The notes under the pieces: model-generated
What the model was told of the DNA's origin: nothing
Database searches by the model: none
The model's input: the letters and a program-made list of their open reading frames with translations, nothing else
Position numbers and translations under genes: made by a program
Shown: positions 18,115-27,356 of the stretch, piece by piece
Layout: each line of letters begins with the position of its first letter
Position numbering within the stretch: position 1 is the first letter of the stretch
Assembly (NCBI GenBank): GCA_021811275.1
Contig: JAJZPI010000024.1
Location: 1 to 32,977 of the forward strand
Length of the DNA: 32,977 nucleotides
Direction of reading: 5' to 3'
Source: Deltaproteobacteria bacterium
GTDB lineage: Bacteria > Desulfobacterota > Desulfarculia > Desulfarculales > Desulfarculaceae

Positions 18115-19500
18115 ATGACCCAAGACAGCGGAGATTCCAGGGAGCGGGAGCCGGGGCGCATCCTCATCGTCGACGACGAGGAGGTGGCGCTCAAGGCCCT
18201 GCGCCGGCTTTTGGAAAAGGAAGGCTACCGGGTCTCCACCTACAGCGATCCCGTGCGGGCCTTGGACCGCCTGCGCGAGGAGCCCTTCGACGTGGTCCTG
18301 AGCGACATCCGCATGCCCCACCTGGACGGGTTGGCCTTCATGGCCGAGGCCCAGCGCCTGTGGCCCGGCCTGGAGGTTATCCTTATCACCGGCTACGCCA
18401 CCCTGCCCAGCGCGGTGGAGGCGGTCAAGCAGGGGGCCTACCACTACCTGGCCAAGCCCCTGGACCCGGATGAGGTGCGGCGGCTGGTGGCCGAGGCGCT
18501 CAACTCCAAGGCCCTGCGGGACATGGCCCAGTGGCCTTCCGGCCCCGACGCCCCTCCCAGCCGGGCCCCGCTCATAGTGGGCCAGAGCCCGGCCATGCTG
18601 CGCCTGGAGGAGACCATCCGCCAGATCGCGCCCACAGACGCCAACGTGCTCATCGTGGGACCTTCGGGGACCGGCAAGGAGTTGGTGGCCCGTTCCATCC
18701 ACGTGCTCAGCCGCCGTCGCGCCGGCGGGCCTTTTTTGGCCTTCAACTGCGCCTCTCTCACCGAGGATCTGATCGCCAATGAGCTTTTCGGCCACGAGAA
18801 GGGGGCCTACACCGGAGCCACTCAGGCCCAGGCCGGGCTGATGGAGGCTGCTGGCGGAGGGACTCTCTTTCTGGACGAGATCGGCGACATGCCGCTTACC
18901 ATGCAGGCCAAGCTGCTGCGGGCGCTGCAGGAGCGGGAGGTGATCCGGGTGGGCGGCACCAAGGCCATACCTCTGGACGTGCGGGTGGTGGCCGCCACCG
19001 CCCGGGACCTCAGGGAGGCCGCCGCCGCCGGGGCCTTCCGGCAAGACCTCTATTTCCGCCTGAACGTGGTCACCTTAACCCTCCCGCCCCTGGCCGAGCG
19101 CAAGAGCGACATCCCGCTTTTGGCCTACCACTTCCTCTACAGGATCAGCAAGCGCACCGGCAAACCCATCAAGACCATCTCGCCCGAGGCCCTGGCCATT
19201 CTGGAGGGGTATGCCTTCCCCGGCAATGTGCGCGAGTTGGAAAACATCCTGGAGCGGGCGGTGGCCTTGGTCCAGGGGCCGGTCATCCGCCCCGGCGATC
19301 TGCCCGCCGACTTGGCCGACCTCAAGCTTTTCTCCTACGCCGAGTCCGACCGCTCGTTGCCCACCCTGGAGCAGATGGAGCGCGATTACGTGGCCTTCGT
19401 CCTGGAGCGCTGCGGTGGTTCGCGCAGCAAGGCCGCCCGCCTGCTGGGCATAGACCGCGCCTCGCTTTGGCGCCGGCTCAAGAAGTTCGATTTGGCCTGA
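18115..19500 (+). CDS. NtrC-family sigma-54-dependent response regulator
   Basis: Encodes 461 residues. A receiver domain (1-125) has the acidic pocket D20/D21 and phosphoacceptor Asp64 in V-L-S-D-I-R-M-P. The AAA+ domain has Walker A G-P-S-G-T-G-K-E (182-189), the sigma-54 contact loop G-A-Y-T-G-A (230-235; Tyr in place of the usual Phe, a known tolerated form), Walker B L-F-L-D-E-I (251-256) and the R-finger region F-R-Q-D-L-Y-F-R-L. A Fis-type helix-turn-helix closes the protein (about 420-460). When phosphorylated it should bind an enhancer and remodel sigma-54 polymerase. It sits 234 bp upstream of a -24/-12 promoter driving an operon that ends in a histidine kinase, so that operon is its likely target and that kinase its likely partner. 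Confidence 0.93.
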   Translation: MTQDSGDSREREPGRILIVDDEEVALKALRRLLEKEGYRVSTYSDPVRALDRLREEPFDVVLSDIRMPHLDGLAFMAEAQRLWPGLEVILITGYATLPSAVEAVKQGAYHYLAKPLDPDEVRRLVAEALNSKALRDMAQWPSGPDAPPSRAPLIVGQSPAMLRLEETIRQIAPTDANVLIVGPSGTGKELVARSIHVLSRRRAGGPFLAFNCASLTEDLIANELFGHEKGAYTGATQAQAGLMEAAGGGTLFLDEIGDMPLTMQAKLLRALQEREVIRVGGTKAIPLDVRVVAATARDLREAAAAGAFRQDLYFRLNVVTLTLPPLAERKSDIPLLAYHFLYRISKRTGKPIKTISPEALAILEGYAFPGNVRELENILERAVALVQGPVIRPGDLPADLADLKLFSYAESDRSLPTLEQMERDYVAFVLERCGGSRSKAARLLGIDRASLWRRLKKFDLA

Positions 19501-19532: not shown

Positions 19533-19683
19533 TTGAAACAAAACGTTCCCCGGCAGCATTGAAGCCTCTTTCCGGTGACGGTCCTGCGCCGCGTTCGCCT
19601 TTGCAACGATCCGATCCTTGGCCGGCCAGTCGGCCCCGCGTATTAATCGCAATCATAACAAAGTGATATCCGGAACAACCTCT

Positions 19684-19699
19684 TGGCCCGCCTTTTGCG
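19684..19699 (+). promoter_or_regulatory. Sigma-54 (-24/-12) promoter
   Basis: TGGCCCG, four bases, TTGCG: GG at 19685-19686 and GC at 19697-19698 are exactly 12 bp apart and nearly all consensus positions match. Transcription should begin about 19710. The AGGAGG at 19705-19710 and the ATG at 19714 would then lie at or before the 5' end of the transcript, which favours the ATG at 19735 as the true first start. Confidence 0.75.
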
Positions 19700-19734
19700 A
19701 AGGCTAGGAGGCGATGTCCCGGAAGAGAGGTGTC

Positions 19735-20283
19735 ATGTTTCAACGAGCCCTGGTGGTCTTCGAGAACCATAAGGTCCTGAGTCAGGCCGTGGACTACGCC
19801 CGCGAGCTGGCCAAGCGCATGGATTGCGAGATCACCCTCCTGATGCTGGTGGAGATGGCCTTCCTGGATTTGCCCCTCTTGGGCAAAAAACGCAACGAGG
19901 TCACCGGACTGGAGGAACAGGCCCGGGTGGTGCTGCCGGACTTGGTGGCCCGTTTGATACGGGAGGGCGTCACTGTGACCGCGGCTTTGCGGGTGGGCGA
20001 ACCAGCCCAGGAACTGGTCAAGTTCCTGGCTGAGCGTCCTCCATTCCAGGTGATCGTCTGGGGCAGCAGCGAGGAGCTGCCCGAAACGGGAAGGGGGGGG
20101 CGTCCCCATTGGCTCGCCAAGGTGGCCGGCGCCTTGGAATGTCCCTTGCTCACGGTGCAGTCCAGGCAACGGCCCCTGGATATCGCGCCGGCGGCGGAGG
20201 AGGGCGCGGGGAGGCAGCCGATCAATTCGAACACAGGCCGTTCCAAGGCTGCGGGCAACCGCGGCCGTCAACAAGGAGTCTAG
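19735..20283 (+). CDS. UspA-like (universal stress protein fold) protein
   Basis: Encodes 182 residues from the ATG at 19735, with GAGAGG 6 bp upstream; an upstream ATG at 19714 is too close to the predicted transcript start. The first 140 residues follow the Usp fold: a hydrophobic beta strand R-A-L-V-V-F, helix Q-A-V-D-Y-A-R-E-L-A, strand I-T-L-L-M-L, helix V-L-P-D-L-V-A-R-L, strand V-T-A-A-L-R-V-G, helix, then V-I-V-W-G-S-S and P-L-L-T-V. The GxxG-9x-G(S/T) ATP loop is absent, so it is likely a non-ATP-binding Usp. A hydrophilic 40-residue tail follows, rich in Arg, Asn and Gly. It is the first gene of the sigma-54 operon; the next begins 1 bp after its stop. Confidence 0.75.
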   Translation: MFQRALVVFENHKVLSQAVDYARELAKRMDCEITLLMLVEMAFLDLPLLGKKRNEVTGLEEQARVVLPDLVARLIREGVTVTAALRVGEPAQELVKFLAERPPFQVIVWGSSEELPETGRGGRPHWLAKVAGALECPLLTVQSRQRPLDIAPAAEEGAGRQPINSNTGRSKAAGNRGRQQGV

Positions 20284-20284
20284 G

Positions 20285-21814
20285 ATGGCCATTGTCATTG
20301 TATCCAGCGCGATCGAAAGCGCCAGGAGAGAGTTGGCCCAGAGCCTGGCGGCCAAACTGGGCGGGGTGTGCGCCAGCCGCGAACAGCTGGTGGAGCAGGC
20401 CACCCTGGCCGGCATCCCGGTGGGCAAGCTGGAGGTCGCGGTGCTCAAGCAGAGCACCCCGCGCGAGCGTCTGGCGCGTCTGAAGTCGCGCTACCTGTCC
20501 TTCGTCACCTCGGCACTCTGCGATCTCGCCTCACAGCACCGCAATCTGGTCTACCACGGTCGGGCCGGCAACCTGCTCCTGCCCGGGGTGTCCCACGTGA
20601 TACGGATTCGGCTCCTGGCCGACAATGAGCGCCAACTTCAGCAGACCATGGCCGCCCTGAATCTGGACCTGGACAAGGCCAAGGACTACCAGCGCAGACT
20701 CAAGGAGGACGTGGCGCGCTGGGTTCACTTCATGCACGGCACCGAGGTGGACAGCCTGAACGGCTACGACTTGGTGCTCAACCTGGCCCACATGAGCATG
20801 GAGAGCGCCGCGGCCGCCATCTGCTCCATGGCCCAGTTGCCGGACTTCAACGAGACCCCGGCCTCCGTCCGCGCCCTGGGCGACCTCTGCCTGGCGGCCC
20901 GGGCCCGCGACCTGCTGGGCCGCGACGAGCGCACCGGCGACATGGACCTGGGAGTCTCGGCCCAGGACGGTCGGGTGACCGTGACCTACATGCCCCAGCA
21001 AGCCGACGAGGCCCCGGCCATCAGCGCCGTGCTGGCCTCCCTCCAGGGCGCGCGCGAGGTGGTTTGCACCATGGCCCTGACCAACCTGCTCTGGCTCTCG
21101 GAGTCCTTCGCCCCCGACAGCCCCGACTTCGCCCACGTCACCGAGTTGGCCCAGCGCTGGGGCGCGGCGGTGGAGTTGATGCGCCTGGTGCCGCAGGACG
21201 CCGACGACCAGCCGGTCTGCCTGGCCAGCGCCGACGAGTTGACCGCGGCCGGGCCCTGCCGGCCCAAGGAGGCCGACCCCACCGGCGGGATCGAGGACGA
21301 CGTGGAGAGCAAGCCTTCGGCCGTGGACGGCGGGCTGGCCGCCACCGCCGAACGCCTCATCAGCTTGGGCCTTTTCGGCGGAGGGCGCACGCTGGCCGGC
21401 GGCGGCCAGGAGGTGGTGGCGGCCATAAAGTCCGCTCCGCGCTACTCCCTGGTGATGGTGGGCGACGTCTTCATGAGCAAGGGCCCGGCGGTGCGCACCC
21501 GGCTCAGCCGCGATCTTGCGGCCTATGTCACCGAGCGCATCACCCTGCCGGTGATGTCCAAGGAAGACCTGCAGGCCAAGGTGGTCTTCGGGGCCAAGCA
21601 GTTCTCGCGCATGGCCCTCTACACCGCCTTGGTGGTGGTGATCTACCTGGTGGTTTTCAGTTTCCAATGGCCGATCCAAGAGTTTCTCGGCTCGCCGGGC
21701 TCCCTGGCCATGAAGGTGGTGGCAACGATAGCGGTGGTCTCCTTCGTGCCCCTGGTGGCTTATCTCTTCGGCAACAGCACGGGCCTGCTCTTCAAATGGC
21801 TGCGGTTTGAGTAA
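20285..21814 (+). CDS. Membrane-anchored cytidylate-kinase-like / BON / Usp-like fusion
   Basis: Encodes 509 residues, with AAGGAG 6 bp upstream. Residues 1-195 match the cytidylate-kinase-like family in layout, including the H-G-R-A-G-N-L-L-L region (91-99), D-N-E-R-Q, and Y-D-L-V-L-N (161-166). The N-terminal strand that should carry G-S-G-G(R/K) instead reads V-S-S-A-I-E-S-A-R-R, so the ATP loop is lost. Residues about 200-270 look like a BON domain. Residues about 285-425 have Usp-like pieces (A-A-I-K-S-A-P-R-Y-S-L-V-M-V-G-D, then I-T-L-P-V-M). Two membrane helices close the protein (443-462 and 473-494). It is probably a membrane-bound ligand or signal sensor beside the exporter; catalysis is unlikely. 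Confidence 0.7.
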   Translation: MAIVIVSSAIESARRELAQSLAAKLGGVCASREQLVEQATLAGIPVGKLEVAVLKQSTPRERLARLKSRYLSFVTSALCDLASQHRNLVYHGRAGNLLLPGVSHVIRIRLLADNERQLQQTMAALNLDLDKAKDYQRRLKEDVARWVHFMHGTEVDSLNGYDLVLNLAHMSMESAAAAICSMAQLPDFNETPASVRALGDLCLAARARDLLGRDERTGDMDLGVSAQDGRVTVTYMPQQADEAPAISAVLASLQGAREVVCTMALTNLLWLSESFAPDSPDFAHVTELAQRWGAAVELMRLVPQDADDQPVCLASADELTAAGPCRPKEADPTGGIEDDVESKPSAVDGGLAATAERLISLGLFGGGRTLAGGGQEVVAAIKSAPRYSLVMVGDVFMSKGPAVRTRLSRDLAAYVTERITLPVMSKEDLQAKVVFGAKQFSRMALYTALVVVIYLVVFSFQWPIQEFLGSPGSLAMKVVATIAVVSFVPLVAYLFGNSTGLLFKWLRFE

Positions 21815-21820
21815 ACACCT

Positions 21821-21838
21821 GCGGGCATCGCGGCCCGC
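21821..21838 (+). other. Intercistronic hairpin before the exporter gene
   Basis: GCGGGC (21821-21826) and GCCCGC (21833-21838) form a perfect 6-bp stem with a 6-nt loop in the 45-bp gap between the kinase-like fusion and the exporter. It has no T-run, so it may be an mRNA processing or stability element that sets relative expression. Confidence 0.4.
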
Positions 21839-21859
21839 TCTTCGTCGGGGAGGATGGAA

Positions 21860-22957
21860 ATGCAAGGTCCCATAACGGATCTCTTCATCAATATCGACCT
21901 GTACTCGGCCCTGCAGGTGGTGGTCCTGGGCTTCATCGGCGGCGTTCTTAGCGGCTTCATCGGCAGCGGCGGCGCCTTCTTCATGACTCCGGGCATGATG
22001 AACCTGGGGGTGGAGGGCGTGATCGCCGTGGCCAGCAACATCACCCACAAGTTCGGCAAGGCCATGGTCGGTTCGCACAAGCATGGCGAAATGGGCAACG
22101 TGGACAAGAAGCTGGCCATGTACCTGCTTCTGACCGCCGCCGCGGGAATCCGCCTTGCGGTCTGGATATCGAGCTTTCTGTTCGAGAGCGGCGACACCCA
22201 CGGGGCCGACAAGGGCGCCGGGGCCAACCTCTATATCAGCCTGGTCTTCGTGAGCATCCTGACGGCGGTGGCGCTGTCGATGCTCAAGGACGTATTGGGA
22301 AAGAAAAACGACGGCGGCGCGGGGCCCTCGCGCAAGATGGTCGAGACCCTGGCCCGGCTCAACCTCAAGCCCCTGATCTACTTCAAGGTCGCCGACGTGA
22401 GCGTGTCGCTTTGGGTGCTGCTGCTGGTCGGACTGGCCACGGGCTACCTGGCCGGCACCATCGGGGTGGGCGGCTTCATCGGCGTGCCGGCCATGATCTA
22501 CATCTTCGGCATCCCCACCGCGGTGGCCGCCGGCACCGAGCTTTATCTGGCCATGTTCATGGGGGCTTTCGGCGCGCTGAACTACGCCTTCGCCGGCTAC
22601 GTCGACCTGCGCCTGACCATGTTGCTCTATCTGGGGTCCCTCGTGGGCGTGCATCTGGGCGTATATGGCGTGAAGGTTGTCAACGAAAAGGTGATCCGGC
22701 TGGTCACGGGTGTTATCATCCTGTTATGCGTGTTCAGCCGGGCTGTCGCCATACCGGTTTATCTGCGCCAGATGGAGATGCTCAACATCGCCGCTTCCTG
22801 GGACGGCTGGCTCAACGGCGCCAGCAAGGCGTTGCTCTTCGCCAGCGGCCTTGCCGGCACCGGCATCATCATGGTGAACGTCATCAAGGCGTACAGGCAA
22901 CGGCTGCGCCTGAAGCGCACCATCGCCTACTCGAGCCAACCCGCCGAGCAGCACTAG
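21860..22957 (+). CDS. TauE/SafE family sulfite/organosulfonate-type exporter
   Basis: Encodes 365 residues from the ATG at 21860. GGGGAGG lies 6 bp upstream, whereas the ATG at 21854 would sit directly on it. There are about eight hydrophobic helices in two halves. Each half carries the family's repeated glycine motif: G-F-I-G-G-V-L-S-G-F-I-G-S-G-G in the first and L-A-G-T-I-G-V-G-G-F-I-G-V-P in the second. A charged cytoplasmic loop (K-K-N-D-G-G) separates the halves. The family exports sulfite, sulfoacetate, or other small anions; the substrate here is not determinable. It sits between the kinase-like fusion and a receiver protein in a sigma-54 operon, so expression is probably induced by a signal sensed by the kinase encoded downstream. 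Confidence 0.9.
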   Translation: MQGPITDLFINIDLYSALQVVVLGFIGGVLSGFIGSGGAFFMTPGMMNLGVEGVIAVASNITHKFGKAMVGSHKHGEMGNVDKKLAMYLLLTAAAGIRLAVWISSFLFESGDTHGADKGAGANLYISLVFVSILTAVALSMLKDVLGKKNDGGAGPSRKMVETLARLNLKPLIYFKVADVSVSLWVLLLVGLATGYLAGTIGVGGFIGVPAMIYIFGIPTAVAAGTELYLAMFMGAFGALNYAFAGYVDLRLTMLLYLGSLVGVHLGVYGVKVVNEKVIRLVTGVIILLCVFSRAVAIPVYLRQMEMLNIAASWDGWLNGASKALLFASGLAGTGIIMVNVIKAYRQRLRLKRTIAYSSQPAEQH

Positions 22958-22977
22958 ACCCAAGGAGGAGGTTAGCC

Positions 22978-23385
22978 ATGTCAGCCCAGCTGAAGGTCAT
23001 GGTGATAGACGACGAACCCATCGTGGGCAAGCGCCTGGGGCCGGCCCTGGAAAAGATGGGTTGCCAGACCGAGACTTTCGTGGACCCCGCCGCGGCCCTC
23101 GGCCGCCTGGCTGAGTGTGAGTTCGACGTGGTGGTCACCGATGTGCGCATGGATGAAGTGGATGGCATCGGGGTGCTGGAAAGGGTCAAGGCCTTGTCCA
23201 AACGCACCAAGGTGATCATGATAACGGGGTACGCGACTCTGGAGGTGGCGCACGAGGCGCTGGCCAAGGGCGCTTTCGACTTCATCGCCAAGCCCTTCAA
23301 ACCCGAGGATCTGCGGCAGGCCGTGGCCAGGGCCGCCGAGGCCCTGGGGATCCAGGGCCCGGGAGCGGCCGCTTCGCAGGCTTGA
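22978..23385 (+). CDS. Receiver-only (CheY-like) response regulator 1
   Basis: Encodes 135 residues, with AAGGAGGAGG before the ATG at 22978; the frame is open further upstream but that is the exporter gene in another frame. It has the acidic pair D-D-E (11-13 approx.), phosphoacceptor Asp in V-V-V-T-D-V-R-M, Thr in M-I-T-G-Y-A and Lys in I-A-K-P-F. No DNA-binding or output domain follows; a short tail rich in Ala and Gly ends the protein. It is strikingly similar to the receiver at 24308. It may act as a phosphate sink or intermediate between the histidine kinase at 24751 and the sigma-54 activator, or bind the kinase-like proteins. The next gene begins 32 bp downstream. Confidence 0.9.
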   Translation: MSAQLKVMVIDDEPIVGKRLGPALEKMGCQTETFVDPAAALGRLAECEFDVVVTDVRMDEVDGIGVLERVKALSKRTKVIMITGYATLEVAHEALAKGAFDFIAKPFKPEDLRQAVARAAEALGIQGPGAAASQA

Positions 23386-23417
23386 TAAGATTAACCCCGT
23401 CTAGGGGAGGTGAGAAA

Positions 23418-24242
23418 ATGTCCGTGATAGCCATATCAGCGTGGAGCCACTGCCACGGTGAGGAGATAGCCCGGCGGGTGGCCCGGAAGTTGAACTTCCG
23501 CAGCCTGGGGCCGGAGCTCCTGGGAGAGGTGGCGGATCGCTGGCAGCTGCCTCTGCCCAAGCTGGTGGCTGCCCTGGGCAAGCAGCAGACGCTACTGGGG
23601 GTGACCCCCCGCGAGCGCCGCCGCCTGTTGGCCTACCTGGAGGCCGCCGTCCTGGAAAAACTGGCCCAGGACAAGGTGGTGACCTGGGGTCTGGGGGCCC
23701 ACTTCTATGTCATGGGCGTCTCTCACGTGCTCAAGGTTCGCCTGGTGCTCGACTGGGAGGCCAGGGTGCGGGCCATGATGGAAGAGGGCGGCATGAACGA
23801 AGCCGCCGCGGCCAAGGCCCTCAAGAAGGAGGACGAGGCCCGCGCCAGGATGGCCCACGAGATCTATCGCAAGCAGGAGGACGACCCCACCCTGTACGAT
23901 CTGACCATCAACCTGATGCAGATAGACATCGAGCAGGCGGTGGAGATCGTCGCCGAGGCCGTCCAGCACAAGCGGTTCAAACCCATGACCTTCTCACGCA
24001 AGCTTATGAAGGATCAGGTTTTGGCCACCCAGGTGAAGGCGGAACTGTTCTCGCGCCACCCCGACGCCCAGGTCTCCGCCGACGGCGGCCAAGTGCTGGT
24101 GACGGTCCCGGCCGTCAGGCGAGACCAGGAAAAGAAGATCTCGGCGGTGCGCGATTTGGCCCGGAAGGTCAAGGGGGTGGCCAGCCTCAAAGTAGAGGTG
24201 GTCAACGACTTCCTGGAAGAAGCCGCTGAATCCATGCGTTGA
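23418..24242 (+). CDS. Cytidylate-kinase-like / BON protein, second copy (soluble)
   Basis: Encodes 274 residues from the ATG at 23418, preceded by GGGGAGGTGAG; an earlier in-frame ATG overlaps the previous gene. Residues 1-190 are cytidylate-kinase-like: T-W-G-L-G-A-H-F-Y-V near 89-98, V-R-L-V, an E-A-A-A-A-K-A-L-K-K-E-D-E-A-R-A-R helix, and Y-D-L-T-I-N (160-165) then I-E-Q-A-V. The N-terminal strand reads I-S-A-W-S-H-C-H-G-E-E, without the G-S-G-G loop. Residues about 200-265 form a BON-like domain ending V-K-G-V-A-S-L-K-V-E-V-V. Unlike the copy at 20285 it has no membrane helices or Usp part. It lies between two receiver-only proteins and may be a signal-transduction partner for them. Confidence 0.75.
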   Translation: MSVIAISAWSHCHGEEIARRVARKLNFRSLGPELLGEVADRWQLPLPKLVAALGKQQTLLGVTPRERRRLLAYLEAAVLEKLAQDKVVTWGLGAHFYVMGVSHVLKVRLVLDWEARVRAMMEEGGMNEAAAAKALKKEDEARARMAHEIYRKQEDDPTLYDLTINLMQIDIEQAVEIVAEAVQHKRFKPMTFSRKLMKDQVLATQVKAELFSRHPDAQVSADGGQVLVTVPAVRRDQEKKISAVRDLARKVKGVASLKVEVVNDFLEEAAESMR

Positions 24243-24251
24243 TGGGCCCGC

Positions 24252-24281
24252 GCCGGGCTTCGACCCCGAAAGATGCCCGGC
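24252..24281 (+). other. Intercistronic hairpin before receiver 2
   Basis: GCCGGGC (24252-24258) and GCCCGGC (24275-24281) form a 7-bp stem with a 16-nt loop between the second kinase-like gene and the second receiver gene. No T-run follows. Possible transcript processing or stability element. Confidence 0.35.
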
Positions 24282-24307
24282 CCCGGCGGCCCGCGAAGGA
24301 GCCGAAG

Positions 24308-24715
24308 ATGAGCGACACGCTTGAGGTCTTGGTGCTCGACGATGAGCCTATCGTGGGCAAGCGCCTGAAGCCGGCCCTGGCCAAGGTGGGGTGCGCGGTG
24401 GAGGTCTTCGATTCCCCCGCCGCCGCCCTGGCGCGCATCGCCGAGAAGGAGTTCGACGTGGTGGTCACCGACATCCGCATGGACGAGATCGATGGCATGC
24501 AGGTGCTGGAGGCCGTGAACAGAAAGTCGCTACGGACCAAGGTTATCATGATCACCGGATACGCCATGATGAGCCTGGCGCGGGAGGCCATGGAGAAGGG
24601 GGCCTTCGATTTCATCGCCAAGCCCTTCACCCCCGAGGACCTGCGGGAGGTGATCGGACGGGCGGCCCAGGCCCTGCGCTCGCCGGCGGAGCCGCCCTCG
24701 GCCTTGGCCGGATAG
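24308..24715 (+). CDS. Receiver-only (CheY-like) response regulator 2
   Basis: Encodes 135 residues from ATG 24308, with AAGGAG about 7 bp upstream. It has L-D-D-E-P-I-V-G-K-R-L near the N-terminus, the phosphoacceptor in V-V-V-T-D-I-R-M-D-E, M-I-T-G-Y-A and I-A-K-P-F. The last two motifs and the D-E-P-I-V-G-K-R-L block are shared almost exactly with the receiver at 22978, so the two are a recent-looking duplication. No output domain follows; a short Pro/Ala tail ends it. It is 35 bp upstream of the histidine kinase gene and is a good candidate for direct phosphotransfer from it. Confidence 0.9.
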   Translation: MSDTLEVLVLDDEPIVGKRLKPALAKVGCAVEVFDSPAAALARIAEKEFDVVVTDIRMDEIDGMQVLEAVNRKSLRTKVIMITGYAMMSLAREAMEKGAFDFIAKPFTPEDLREVIGRAAQALRSPAEPPSALAG

Positions 24716-24750
24716 CGCGGTAATTGTCACCGAACGCCGGGACGGGGCAC

Positions 24751-26337
24751 ATGCCGGATGACAAGCAGCCGGCCGAGCCGGAGCGGGGCCAGGCCGCCAC
24801 GGTGGAAGGCCGCTACGAGCGGATTAAGGCGGCCGAGGCTGCCCGCCAGGCCCTGCTCACCCGGCCCCGCTTCAGCTTCCGCACCCAGATATTCCTGGGC
24901 TTCTTCCTGGCGTTCCTGTTCTCATTCGGCATAGCTACCTCGATGGTGATAACCATCTACCTCGTCGAGAACAAGATGAAGTTCCTGGAGATCGCCAGCG
25001 AGTACGTCACGGAAATTCAGCAGGCCCGGCGCTTCGAGAAGAATTACTTTCTTTACGGCACCAACCTGCAGGATGCCCTGGAGCAGGTCTACCTGGCCAA
25101 GACCATACTTGAGAAGAACTCCGACGAGCTGCTGCGAGTGGCCGGCGACAAGCGCGATTCCATGATAATCCCCCATCTGCAGCGCTACGAGGAGCTGCTC
25201 AAGAGACTGGCCGCCCTGGAGAGCGAGCCGGACAGTCCGCGCCTCAACCAGAAGAAAAAAGAGATCGAGATGGAGGTGCGCCAGCACGGCCAGGAAATGG
25301 TCTCCTTCGCCCAGGACGTCATGACCAAGGAGAAGGAGTCCATGGCCCGGATGGTGGCGCGCTCACGCAACATCCACGTCCTCTCCTTCGCCGTGGCCTC
25401 CATCTTCATGGTCTACATCGCCTATTTCCTAGGCAGCAGCCTTCTGGGCACGGTCAATCGATTCCAGGGCTACGCCCAGCGCATCGCCGCCGGCGACTTC
25501 ACCCCCATCACCCCCATCCGCCGCTTCCGAGACGAGTTCACCGAATTGGCCATCACCATCAACCAGATGTTGCAAGAGCTGGAGGCCCACGAGGCAACCT
25601 TGGTCCAGTCGCACAAGATGCGCGCCGTCGGCACCCTCACCGCGGGTGTGGCCCATGAGCTGAACAACCCCCTGAACAACATCACCCTCACCGCCCACGC
25701 CCTCCTGGAAGACTACCGGGAAATGAATGACGATGACCGCCGAGAAATGTTGGGAGACCTGGTCAACGAGGCTGGCCGGGCCCAGAGCATCATAAAGAAT
25801 CTGCTGGACTTCGCCCGCGAAAGCGGAGCCCAGGTGGAGCCGCTGGACCTGGTGGCCTTGCTCAAGGACACCACCCACCTGGCGGCCAACCAGATCAAGC
25901 TTTCAGGCATAAAGATGGAGTTCAGCGCCACCGACAACCTGCCTAGGGTGCATGGCGACGCCCAGCAATTGCAGCAGGTCTTCCTGAACCTGATCCTGAA
26001 CGCCATGGACGCCTCGCCCAAGGGCGGCAAGATTCAGGTGCTGGTGGTTCCGGCCGACGAGCCCAACTTCGTGGCGGTCAAGATAATCGATTTCGGCTCG
26101 GGCATTCCCGAGCACATCCTGGGCTCCATCTTCGACCCCTTCTTCACCACCAAGACCAAGGGCAAGGGCACCGGCCTGGGGCTCAGTGTCTCCCAGGGCA
26201 TCGTGGCCAAGCACGGCGGCCGCATCATGGTCAGCAGCCGCGAAGGCCAAGGCTCCACCTTCTCGGTGGTGCTGCCCATCACCACCTTGCCAGCGCGCAT
26301 CGGGGGGAACATGCCACGCTCCGGGGCCCTAAGCTAG
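24751..26337 (+). CDS. Membrane sensor histidine kinase
   Basis: Encodes 528 residues from ATG 24751 (weak GGGG upstream; a TTG at 24724 is an alternative). Helix 47-71, an extracytoplasmic helical sensor region of about 135 residues (72-207, E- and K-rich, four-helix-bundle like), helix about 209-229, HAMP (about 230-283), then the H-box G-V-A-H-E-L-N-N-P-L-N-N with His302, the N-box L-N-L-I-L-N-A-M (412-419), D-F-G-S-G-I-P (447-453), F-F-T-T-K and G-T-G-L-G-L-S (473-479). It phosphorylates a receiver; candidates are the two encoded just upstream and the sigma-54 activator at 18115. It is the last gene of the operon. The signal is unknown; given the exporter in the operon, an external anion or redox stress is plausible. 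Confidence 0.92.
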   Translation: MPDDKQPAEPERGQAATVEGRYERIKAAEAARQALLTRPRFSFRTQIFLGFFLAFLFSFGIATSMVITIYLVENKMKFLEIASEYVTEIQQARRFEKNYFLYGTNLQDALEQVYLAKTILEKNSDELLRVAGDKRDSMIIPHLQRYEELLKRLAALESEPDSPRLNQKKKEIEMEVRQHGQEMVSFAQDVMTKEKESMARMVARSRNIHVLSFAVASIFMVYIAYFLGSSLLGTVNRFQGYAQRIAAGDFTPITPIRRFRDEFTELAITINQMLQELEAHEATLVQSHKMRAVGTLTAGVAHELNNPLNNITLTAHALLEDYREMNDDDRREMLGDLVNEAGRAQSIIKNLLDFARESGAQVEPLDLVALLKDTTHLAANQIKLSGIKMEFSATDNLPRVHGDAQQLQQVFLNLILNAMDASPKGGKIQVLVVPADEPNFVAVKIIDFGSGIPEHILGSIFDPFFTTKTKGKGTGLGLSVSQGIVAKHGGRIMVSSREGQGSTFSVVLPITTLPARIGGNMPRSGALS

Positions 26338-26384: not shown

Positions 26385-27356
26385 CTAGTCCCCCGCTCGT
26401 CCCTTGCCGGAATCTCCCAGGTCGAAGAGTTCCCGCGGGTAGGGCTGGAAGAAGCTCTGTCCCAGCAGATAATCCACCTTGAATTGTAAGGACCATGCGG
26501 TTAGCAGGCCCTGCAAGAGCAGCAGAGGCGCGCGGCCCGCGCGGTATTGTTCCAAGGTCTCAAGGAAATAGGCCTTCTCCCTGGAGCCCAAGGCCTTCTT
26601 GAAATAACCCAGAGCGTGCATGCAAACGTTGATGACCGCCGGCGCGCGCGGCGGGCGGGCCATGGCTTGGCCTAGGAGACGGGCGTACTGGGCAATGGCC
26701 GACACCGGGTCGTCCGCGGCCAGACCCGCCACCAGACGACCCATCTGCCGCAGGGCGGTCTGGTTGTAGGCCATGAGCAGGAGCTTGTTGGATGCCTGAA
26801 ACTCCATCAGACCGCGAGCCCCGGGTCGCGCCGCAATTTGGCGCAGGCGAGCGTTGACGAAAAGTTTGGTCAGGAAGTGCTCGCGCAGCCGGAAGTTCAG
26901 CACCCGGCCTTCGTGCTCCACGGCCAGGGCCGGGAATGCCTCCATCATGGCCGCGGCGAACAGGCCCCGGCCACGGCGCAAGGGCGAGCCCTCCTTGCCG
27001 ACGTTGTATACCTTCACGTCCAGGGGGCCGCAGGAGGGCGAACGGCTTTTGAGGAGGAAGCCGTCGACCGCTTCAAGGCTGGCGATGATTCGCTGGCTGA
27101 AGCGAGCCATTTCCCCGGTGAGGTCGCGCCCGCTGGCGGGCTGCACCATCCTTATGGCGCCGGATGTCCTTTCAACCAGGCGCACCGGCGAGCGGGGCAC
27201 CCCCAGGCCGATCTCCACCTCCGGACAGACGGTGGTGAAATCGACCCAGCCACCCAGGCGGGTGGCGAACTCGTCATTTATGGTTTGGCCGTTGTAGCGG
27301 CAGGAGGCGAAACCCAGGCACTTGCTGGCCAGAACCTTGGGTCGGGGGAAATCCAT
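26385..27356 (-). CDS. DUF523-DUF1722 protein (TudS-like plus YbgA-like fusion)
   Basis: Encodes 323 residues; GGGAG lies 8 bp before the ATG at 27356. Residues about 7-150 are DUF523, with Cys13, Cys19, Cys44 and Cys109 (K-C-L-G-F-A-S-C-R-Y-N-G, V-C-P-E, K-S-R-S-P-S-C-G). In characterised members (TudS) such cysteines hold an iron-sulfur cluster used for desulfurising thiolated bases. Residues about 190-310 are DUF1722, the YbgA domain. E. coli ybgA lies next to the phr photolyase gene, and here too a photolyase diverges from this gene 122 bp away, an association that supports a shared role in DNA or RNA damage handling. Actual substrate is unknown. Confidence 0.88.
   Translation of the reverse strand: MDFPRPKVLASKCLGFASCRYNGQTINDEFATRLGGWVDFTTVCPEVEIGLGVPRSPVRLVERTSGAIRMVQPASGRDLTGEMARFSQRIIASLEAVDGFLLKSRSPSCGPLDVKVYNVGKEGSPLRRGRGLFAAAMMEAFPALAVEHEGRVLNFRLREHFLTKLFVNARLRQIAARPGARGLMEFQASNKLLLMAYNQTALRQMGRLVAGLAADDPVSAIAQYARLLGQAMARPPRAPAVINVCMHALGYFKKALGSREKAYFLETLEQYRAGRAPLLLLQGLLTAWSLQFKVDYLLGQSFFQPYPRELFDLGDSGKGRAGD

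Follow-up and report, generated by a model that had tools for sequence, protein, structure and literature searches.

The window analysed here, a stretch of 32,977 nucleotides that is contig C84 of a 3.95-Mb genome assembly in 245 contigs, encodes two cytidylate kinase-like proteins, A and B, within a set of transport and two-component genes. This raises the question of what such proteins do there and whether they are still kinases. Among named genomes, Desulfarculus-type Desulfobacterota are the closest to this one. The set is co-directional (+ strand) and comprises, in order, an NtrC-type sigma-54 activator response regulator (18115..19500; Pfam Response_reg, Sigma54_activat, and HTH_8), a stand-alone Usp protein (19735..20283; PF00582, E = 5e-8; the frame is also open from an ATG at 19714), protein A (20285..21814; 509 amino acids), a TauE/SafE (TSUP) permease (21854..22957; PF01925, E = 1.8e-35), single-domain receiver 1 (22978..23385; PF00072, E = 1.9e-28), protein B (23418..24242; 274 amino acids), single-domain receiver 2 (24239..24715; PF00072, E = 3.5e-29), and a membrane histidine kinase (24724..26337; HAMP, HisKA, and HATPase_c in Pfam). 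For B, the ATG at 23418 is a more plausible start than the TTG at 23382. Directly past the histidine kinase gene, the opposite strand encodes a protein with a 2-thiouracil desulfurase domain and DUF1722 (26385-27356, -).

A sigma-54 (-24/-12) promoter-like site, TTGGCCCGCCTTTTGC, lies just upstream of the Usp gene (19683..19698, +). It is the sole match in the window, against 0.17 expected by chance, and as the best site in the gap upstream of Usp it was equaled in 0 of 100 shuffles of the region. The best sigma-54-type site in the gap between the NtrC gene and A reached p ≤0.05 in 15 of 24 loci, a rough count based on mononucleotide shuffles. An anti-phage defence role was also considered and rejected, as PADLOC gave no match. 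The weak match of B to one PHROGs family of unknown function (E 8.7e-8) was uninformative.

A sequence-only reading had described both open reading frames as cytidylate kinase-like, and the profile searches agree. Against a PF13189 cut-off of 28 bits, A scored 63.1 bits (E = 4.7e-17, residues 7-168) and B scored 101.1 bits (E = 1e-28). The AlphaFold2 models were based on 32 aligned orthologues for A and 14 aligned B-type proteins for B, with a pLDDT of 81 and pTM of 0.67 for A and a pLDDT of 90 and pTM of 0.86 for B. A CMP-kinase fold was predicted for the kinase parts of both proteins (residues 1-190 in A and 1-188 in B). The A domain gave Z scores of 15.3 to 3hdt and 11.4 to E. coli CMP kinase (1kdo), and the B domain 19.2 and 14.8, respectively.

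The kinase part is followed in both proteins by a BON-type domain (residues 192-263 in A and 191-263 in B), as had been proposed from the sequence. The BON profile itself (PF04972) found no match at E ≤1 in A or B, but it did match 3 of 32 aligned A rows and 5 of 14 B-type rows, and it passed the cut-off in homologues L012, L098, L100, and one L099 protein. Furthermore, a family profile of this region matched OsmY at 5e-9 and DolP at 3e-6, and the models place the secondary structure in the order alpha-beta-beta-alpha-beta. The assignment therefore comes from homologues, profile comparison, and predicted structure. OsmY and DolP (PMC7806268) share the BON-type domain and are periplasmic or outer-membrane proteins, whereas A and B have no apparent export signal. 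A kinase-BON fusion is not in the architecture table of PMC7806268, and PF13189 or cytidylate kinase, although an indexed term of the DolP paper, was not found in its main text.

Protein A continues with a domain predicted to adopt a Usp fold (residues 265-427; Z about 11 to 3fh0, 3s3t, and 1mjh), interrupted by a disordered stretch at 306-346. The Usp-like part suggested earlier thus stands as a predicted fold but not as a Pfam assignment, because PF00582 was silent on A and reached only about 0.08 in 2 of 32 orthologues. A differs from ATP-binding Usp proteins in that the ATP motif G-2x-G-9x-G(S/T) is present in none of 39 A-family members; the stand-alone Usp protein (19735..20283) also lacks this motif. 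The two membrane helices described for A correspond to hydrophobic helices at about residues 437-459 and 474-505.

We then compared the ATP-binding loop of both proteins with that of canonical PF13189 members, in which S-R-x-Y-G-S-G-G-[KR] lies between strand 1 and helix 1. From residue S7, A reads S-S-A-I-E-S-A-R-R-E and B reads S-A-W-S-H-C-H-G-E-E, where canonical proteins have S-R-x-Y-G-S-G-G-R-x. Alignment, and for A also the model, place the degenerate loop at residues 8-16 (20306..20332 in A and 23439..23465 in B, both +). Neither GxxxxGK[ST] nor GSGG[KR] was found elsewhere in either protein. A contains a single G-x(3)-G-K string, GIPVGK (43-48), which was rejected as a P-loop because it lies between two helices and does not follow a strand. 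In the models, the degenerate residues occupy the strand 1-helix 1 turn of the CMP-kinase fold, indicating that no P-loop is hidden at another position. These data are in agreement with the loss of the loop first noticed in the sequence, and the structure prediction, which had been suggested as a check on it, revealed no intact P-loop elsewhere in A or B.

The neighbourhood of A is strongly conserved. A recurs across related loci, and in all 36 in which the contig continues, TauE follows directly at a distance of 9-218 bp; a survey of TauE neighbourhoods for loop-less members had been proposed alongside the original observation. Where the contig is long enough, a receiver is usually the next gene, and a Usp-like ORF with weak Pfam scores precedes A in several other lineages. 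Such tight linkage to TauE, the predicted membrane anchor of A, and the sigma-54-like site and NtrC gene upstream would fit a reading in which A serves TauE alone, as a structural or regulatory subunit outside the phosphorelay, and the receivers and kinase do no more than regulate transport operon expression. We regard this as unlikely, given that the same loop-less fold is found, without membrane helices, in B and in a group of receiver fusions, all encoded among phosphorelay genes. In these fusions, of about 406-407 amino acids, a loop-less PF13189 domain is joined to a response-regulator receiver (L013:8719-9939, on contig C20 of the same genome, L037, and L038). Open frames of similar length occur in other related genomes.

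Related genomes also encode a pair of kinase-like proteins, one loop-bearing and one loop-less, in a comparable gene set that includes NtrC, Usp, a permease, a receiver, and a histidine kinase. The permease adjoining the pair, scanned in L064 only, is a DASS-type protein of 603 residues with CitMHS/Na_sulph_symp and TrkA_C domains. Adjacent pairs of this type with a receiver and a histidine kinase were seen in L054, L056, and L064 (also L058 and L059). Together, the linkage to TauE and receivers, the permease-pair sets, and the receiver fusions make a signalling role for the loop-less PF13189 fold probable. A separate loop-less paralogue with a BON domain over the cut-off lies near an NtrC-type regulator on contig C135 of the same genome (L012:8331-9146); L033-L036 group with it.

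A single scan of named genomes yielded 38 full or partial A orthologues from Desulfobacterota, Acidobacteriota, Myxococcota, and an Abyssobacteria record, including cultured Desulfospira joergensenii. Of the 38 distinct A-family proteins in the alignment, 34 have no intact loop, and none of these 34 has the lid arginine seen in loop-bearing relatives, which in A is replaced by V/I/L/F (about residues 140-146; 20702..20722, +). The remaining four retain both GG[KR] and the lid arginine (Fisher p 1.4e-5 for co-loss, a value that ignores relatedness). In comparison with Cytidylate_kin2 proteins (PF13189; 3hdt and 3fdi), A and B thus share the sequence family over the cut-off and the fold (Z 15-19) but lack the GSGG(K/R) loop and, in A, the lid arginine, and they carry added BON, Usp-fold, and membrane parts. 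With E. coli Cmk they share the overall fold at 14% identity but not Walker A, which is absent from both; of the lid, A lacks the catalytic arginine, whereas B retains one as part of a D..R pair (D139 and R142).

These retained residues bear on the possibility that A and B are still enzymes, which would hold phosphate in a different way or draw on a different phosphoryl donor, with a loop that is divergent rather than dead. In the profile alignment, a glycine of canonical PF13189 members aligns with the Walker lysine of E. coli CMP kinase, so even canonical loops are unusual. The Walker-A lysine is, by this alignment, already missing from canonical members, and the family evidently tolerates change in the loop. 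In addition, B keeps its lid pair, so that it may still bind nucleotides to some extent, and R93, D162, and N166 remain conserved in A while its ATP loop and lid have changed. Against this, none of G11, G13, G14, and R8 is left in A of the window or its nearest orthologues, loop residues are variable among them, and the very proteins that lack the loop have no lid arginine either. We therefore consider continued catalysis improbable. What A and B have lost is nevertheless uncertain, canonical PF13189 members being themselves only presumed kinases.

In a tree computed after removal of the loop and lid columns, one event (support 82, not starred) accounts for the joint loss of loop and lid inside A, and a sign test of loop against lid loss had few independent pairs to draw on. 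B belongs to a different clade, made up of loop-less partners (support 98). The sister paralogues of this clade, often encoded adjacent to its members, have S-R-G-S-Y-S-x-G-[KR] as well as the lid arginine. The loop was thus lost independently in A and B; over the whole tree, the loop state requires seven changes. As L098, L100, and one L099 protein are loop-bearing and have BON domains over the cut-off, the BON fusion is older than the loop loss, so the title of the initial proposal, which links the two changes, is not fully accurate. Between A and an 81% identical orthologue, dN was 0.12 and dS 0.50 (0.13 and 0.60 for the kinase domain alone), showing that A is under purifying selection and is maintained, not decaying. 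It is therefore highly improbable that the loop loss is relaxed constraint or misassembly without functional meaning, as a metagenome-derived assembly in so many contigs might suggest: dN is well below dS, loop-less relatives of B exist, and the loop-less A orthologues, from separate records including the cultured organism, rule out a sequencing error or assembly artefact.

Beyond the fold, the loss of the loop and of the lid arginine in A, purifying selection, and linkage to TauE and receivers, we favour, with somewhat better than even confidence, the reading that A and B are catalytically dead nucleotide-kinase folds, acting as subunits that read a ligand or provide a scaffold in a module of transporter and two-component system. 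Both would be pseudo-nucleotide-kinases that keep the Cytidylate_kin2 fold without the usual ATP binding and cleavage. A would act as a membrane-anchored accessory subunit of the adjoining TauE-type anion permease, a contact for which linkage alone is not proof, and B as a soluble partner of the two receivers and the histidine kinase. The surviving substrate-side half may bind a phosphoprotein or a ligand that is phosphorylated or a nucleotide, with the BON and Usp modules scaffolding the kinase fold to the membrane and the phosphorelay. The state of transport or ligand would then be reported to the kinase/NtrC system, which could drive the operon from the putative sigma-54 promoter. For the conversion of a kinase fold to a sensor or adaptor, as originally envisaged, the loop loss, the signalling context, and the receiver-fused loop-less relatives speak in favour; the sensor or adaptor role itself is what we infer from them. 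Our results suggest that a nucleotide-kinase fold has been co-opted for signalling on more than one occasion.

The closest proven precedent, by analogy, is the guanylate-kinase domain of the MAGUK proteins. This domain has lost ATP and GMP binding as well as catalysis, its old GMP site takes phosphoproteins, and its divergence is greatest in the ATP-side lid (PMC3335814). The Dlg domain and the proteins described here have in common a nucleotide-kinase fold, a diverged ATP side and lid, a retained substrate side, and a place in a multidomain signalling protein. They differ in that the MAGUK domain belongs to the guanylate, not the cytidylate, kinase lineage and is found in animals, and in that phosphoprotein binding is proven there and proposed for A and B by analogy only. 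More speculatively, the module might be a bacterial counterpart of MAGUK, in which the ATP half was repeatedly lost and the substrate half reads a phosphorylated ligand or receiver and so links an anion permease with a phosphorelay; we hold this broader view to be doubtful.

There are also parallels for the Usp part. According to work cited in PMC5549992, UspC acts as a scaffold for KdpD/KdpE, and the transporter TeaABC may be regulated by TeaD. Both tie a Usp fold to a transporter or to a kinase and response regulator; A differs in that its Usp fold belongs to a membrane protein in which it is joined to a loop-less kinase fold. In the openly accessible literature, we found no paper joining cytidylate kinase with universal stress proteins, TauE, or a response regulator, and a sulfate transporter review (PMC5840216) does not mention such kinase-like partners.

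PF13189 proteins are numerous in Desulfobacterota, with up to nine places per genome, and 'cytidylate kinase-like' is usually their sole label. This label is misleading if many of them are transporter-linked signalling pseudoenzymes. In that case, PF13189 would provide a natural gradation between loop-bearing and loop-less proteins on which the change from enzyme to signalling domain could be tested, also inside one orthologous family (A) whose TauE partner is constant. The genome studied here has eight PF13189 places: five with a degenerate loop (A, B, and those on C20, C135, and C138), a canonical one on C12, and near-canonical ones on C189 and C115. Finally, high-scoring PF13189 proteins from the same phylum (L117, L119, L123, L105, and L132) carry other loop variants, SKEYASESEEFA, SKEYGTHSNELA, and SRECGVDSEEVA, indicating that loop change is wider than the A/B module.
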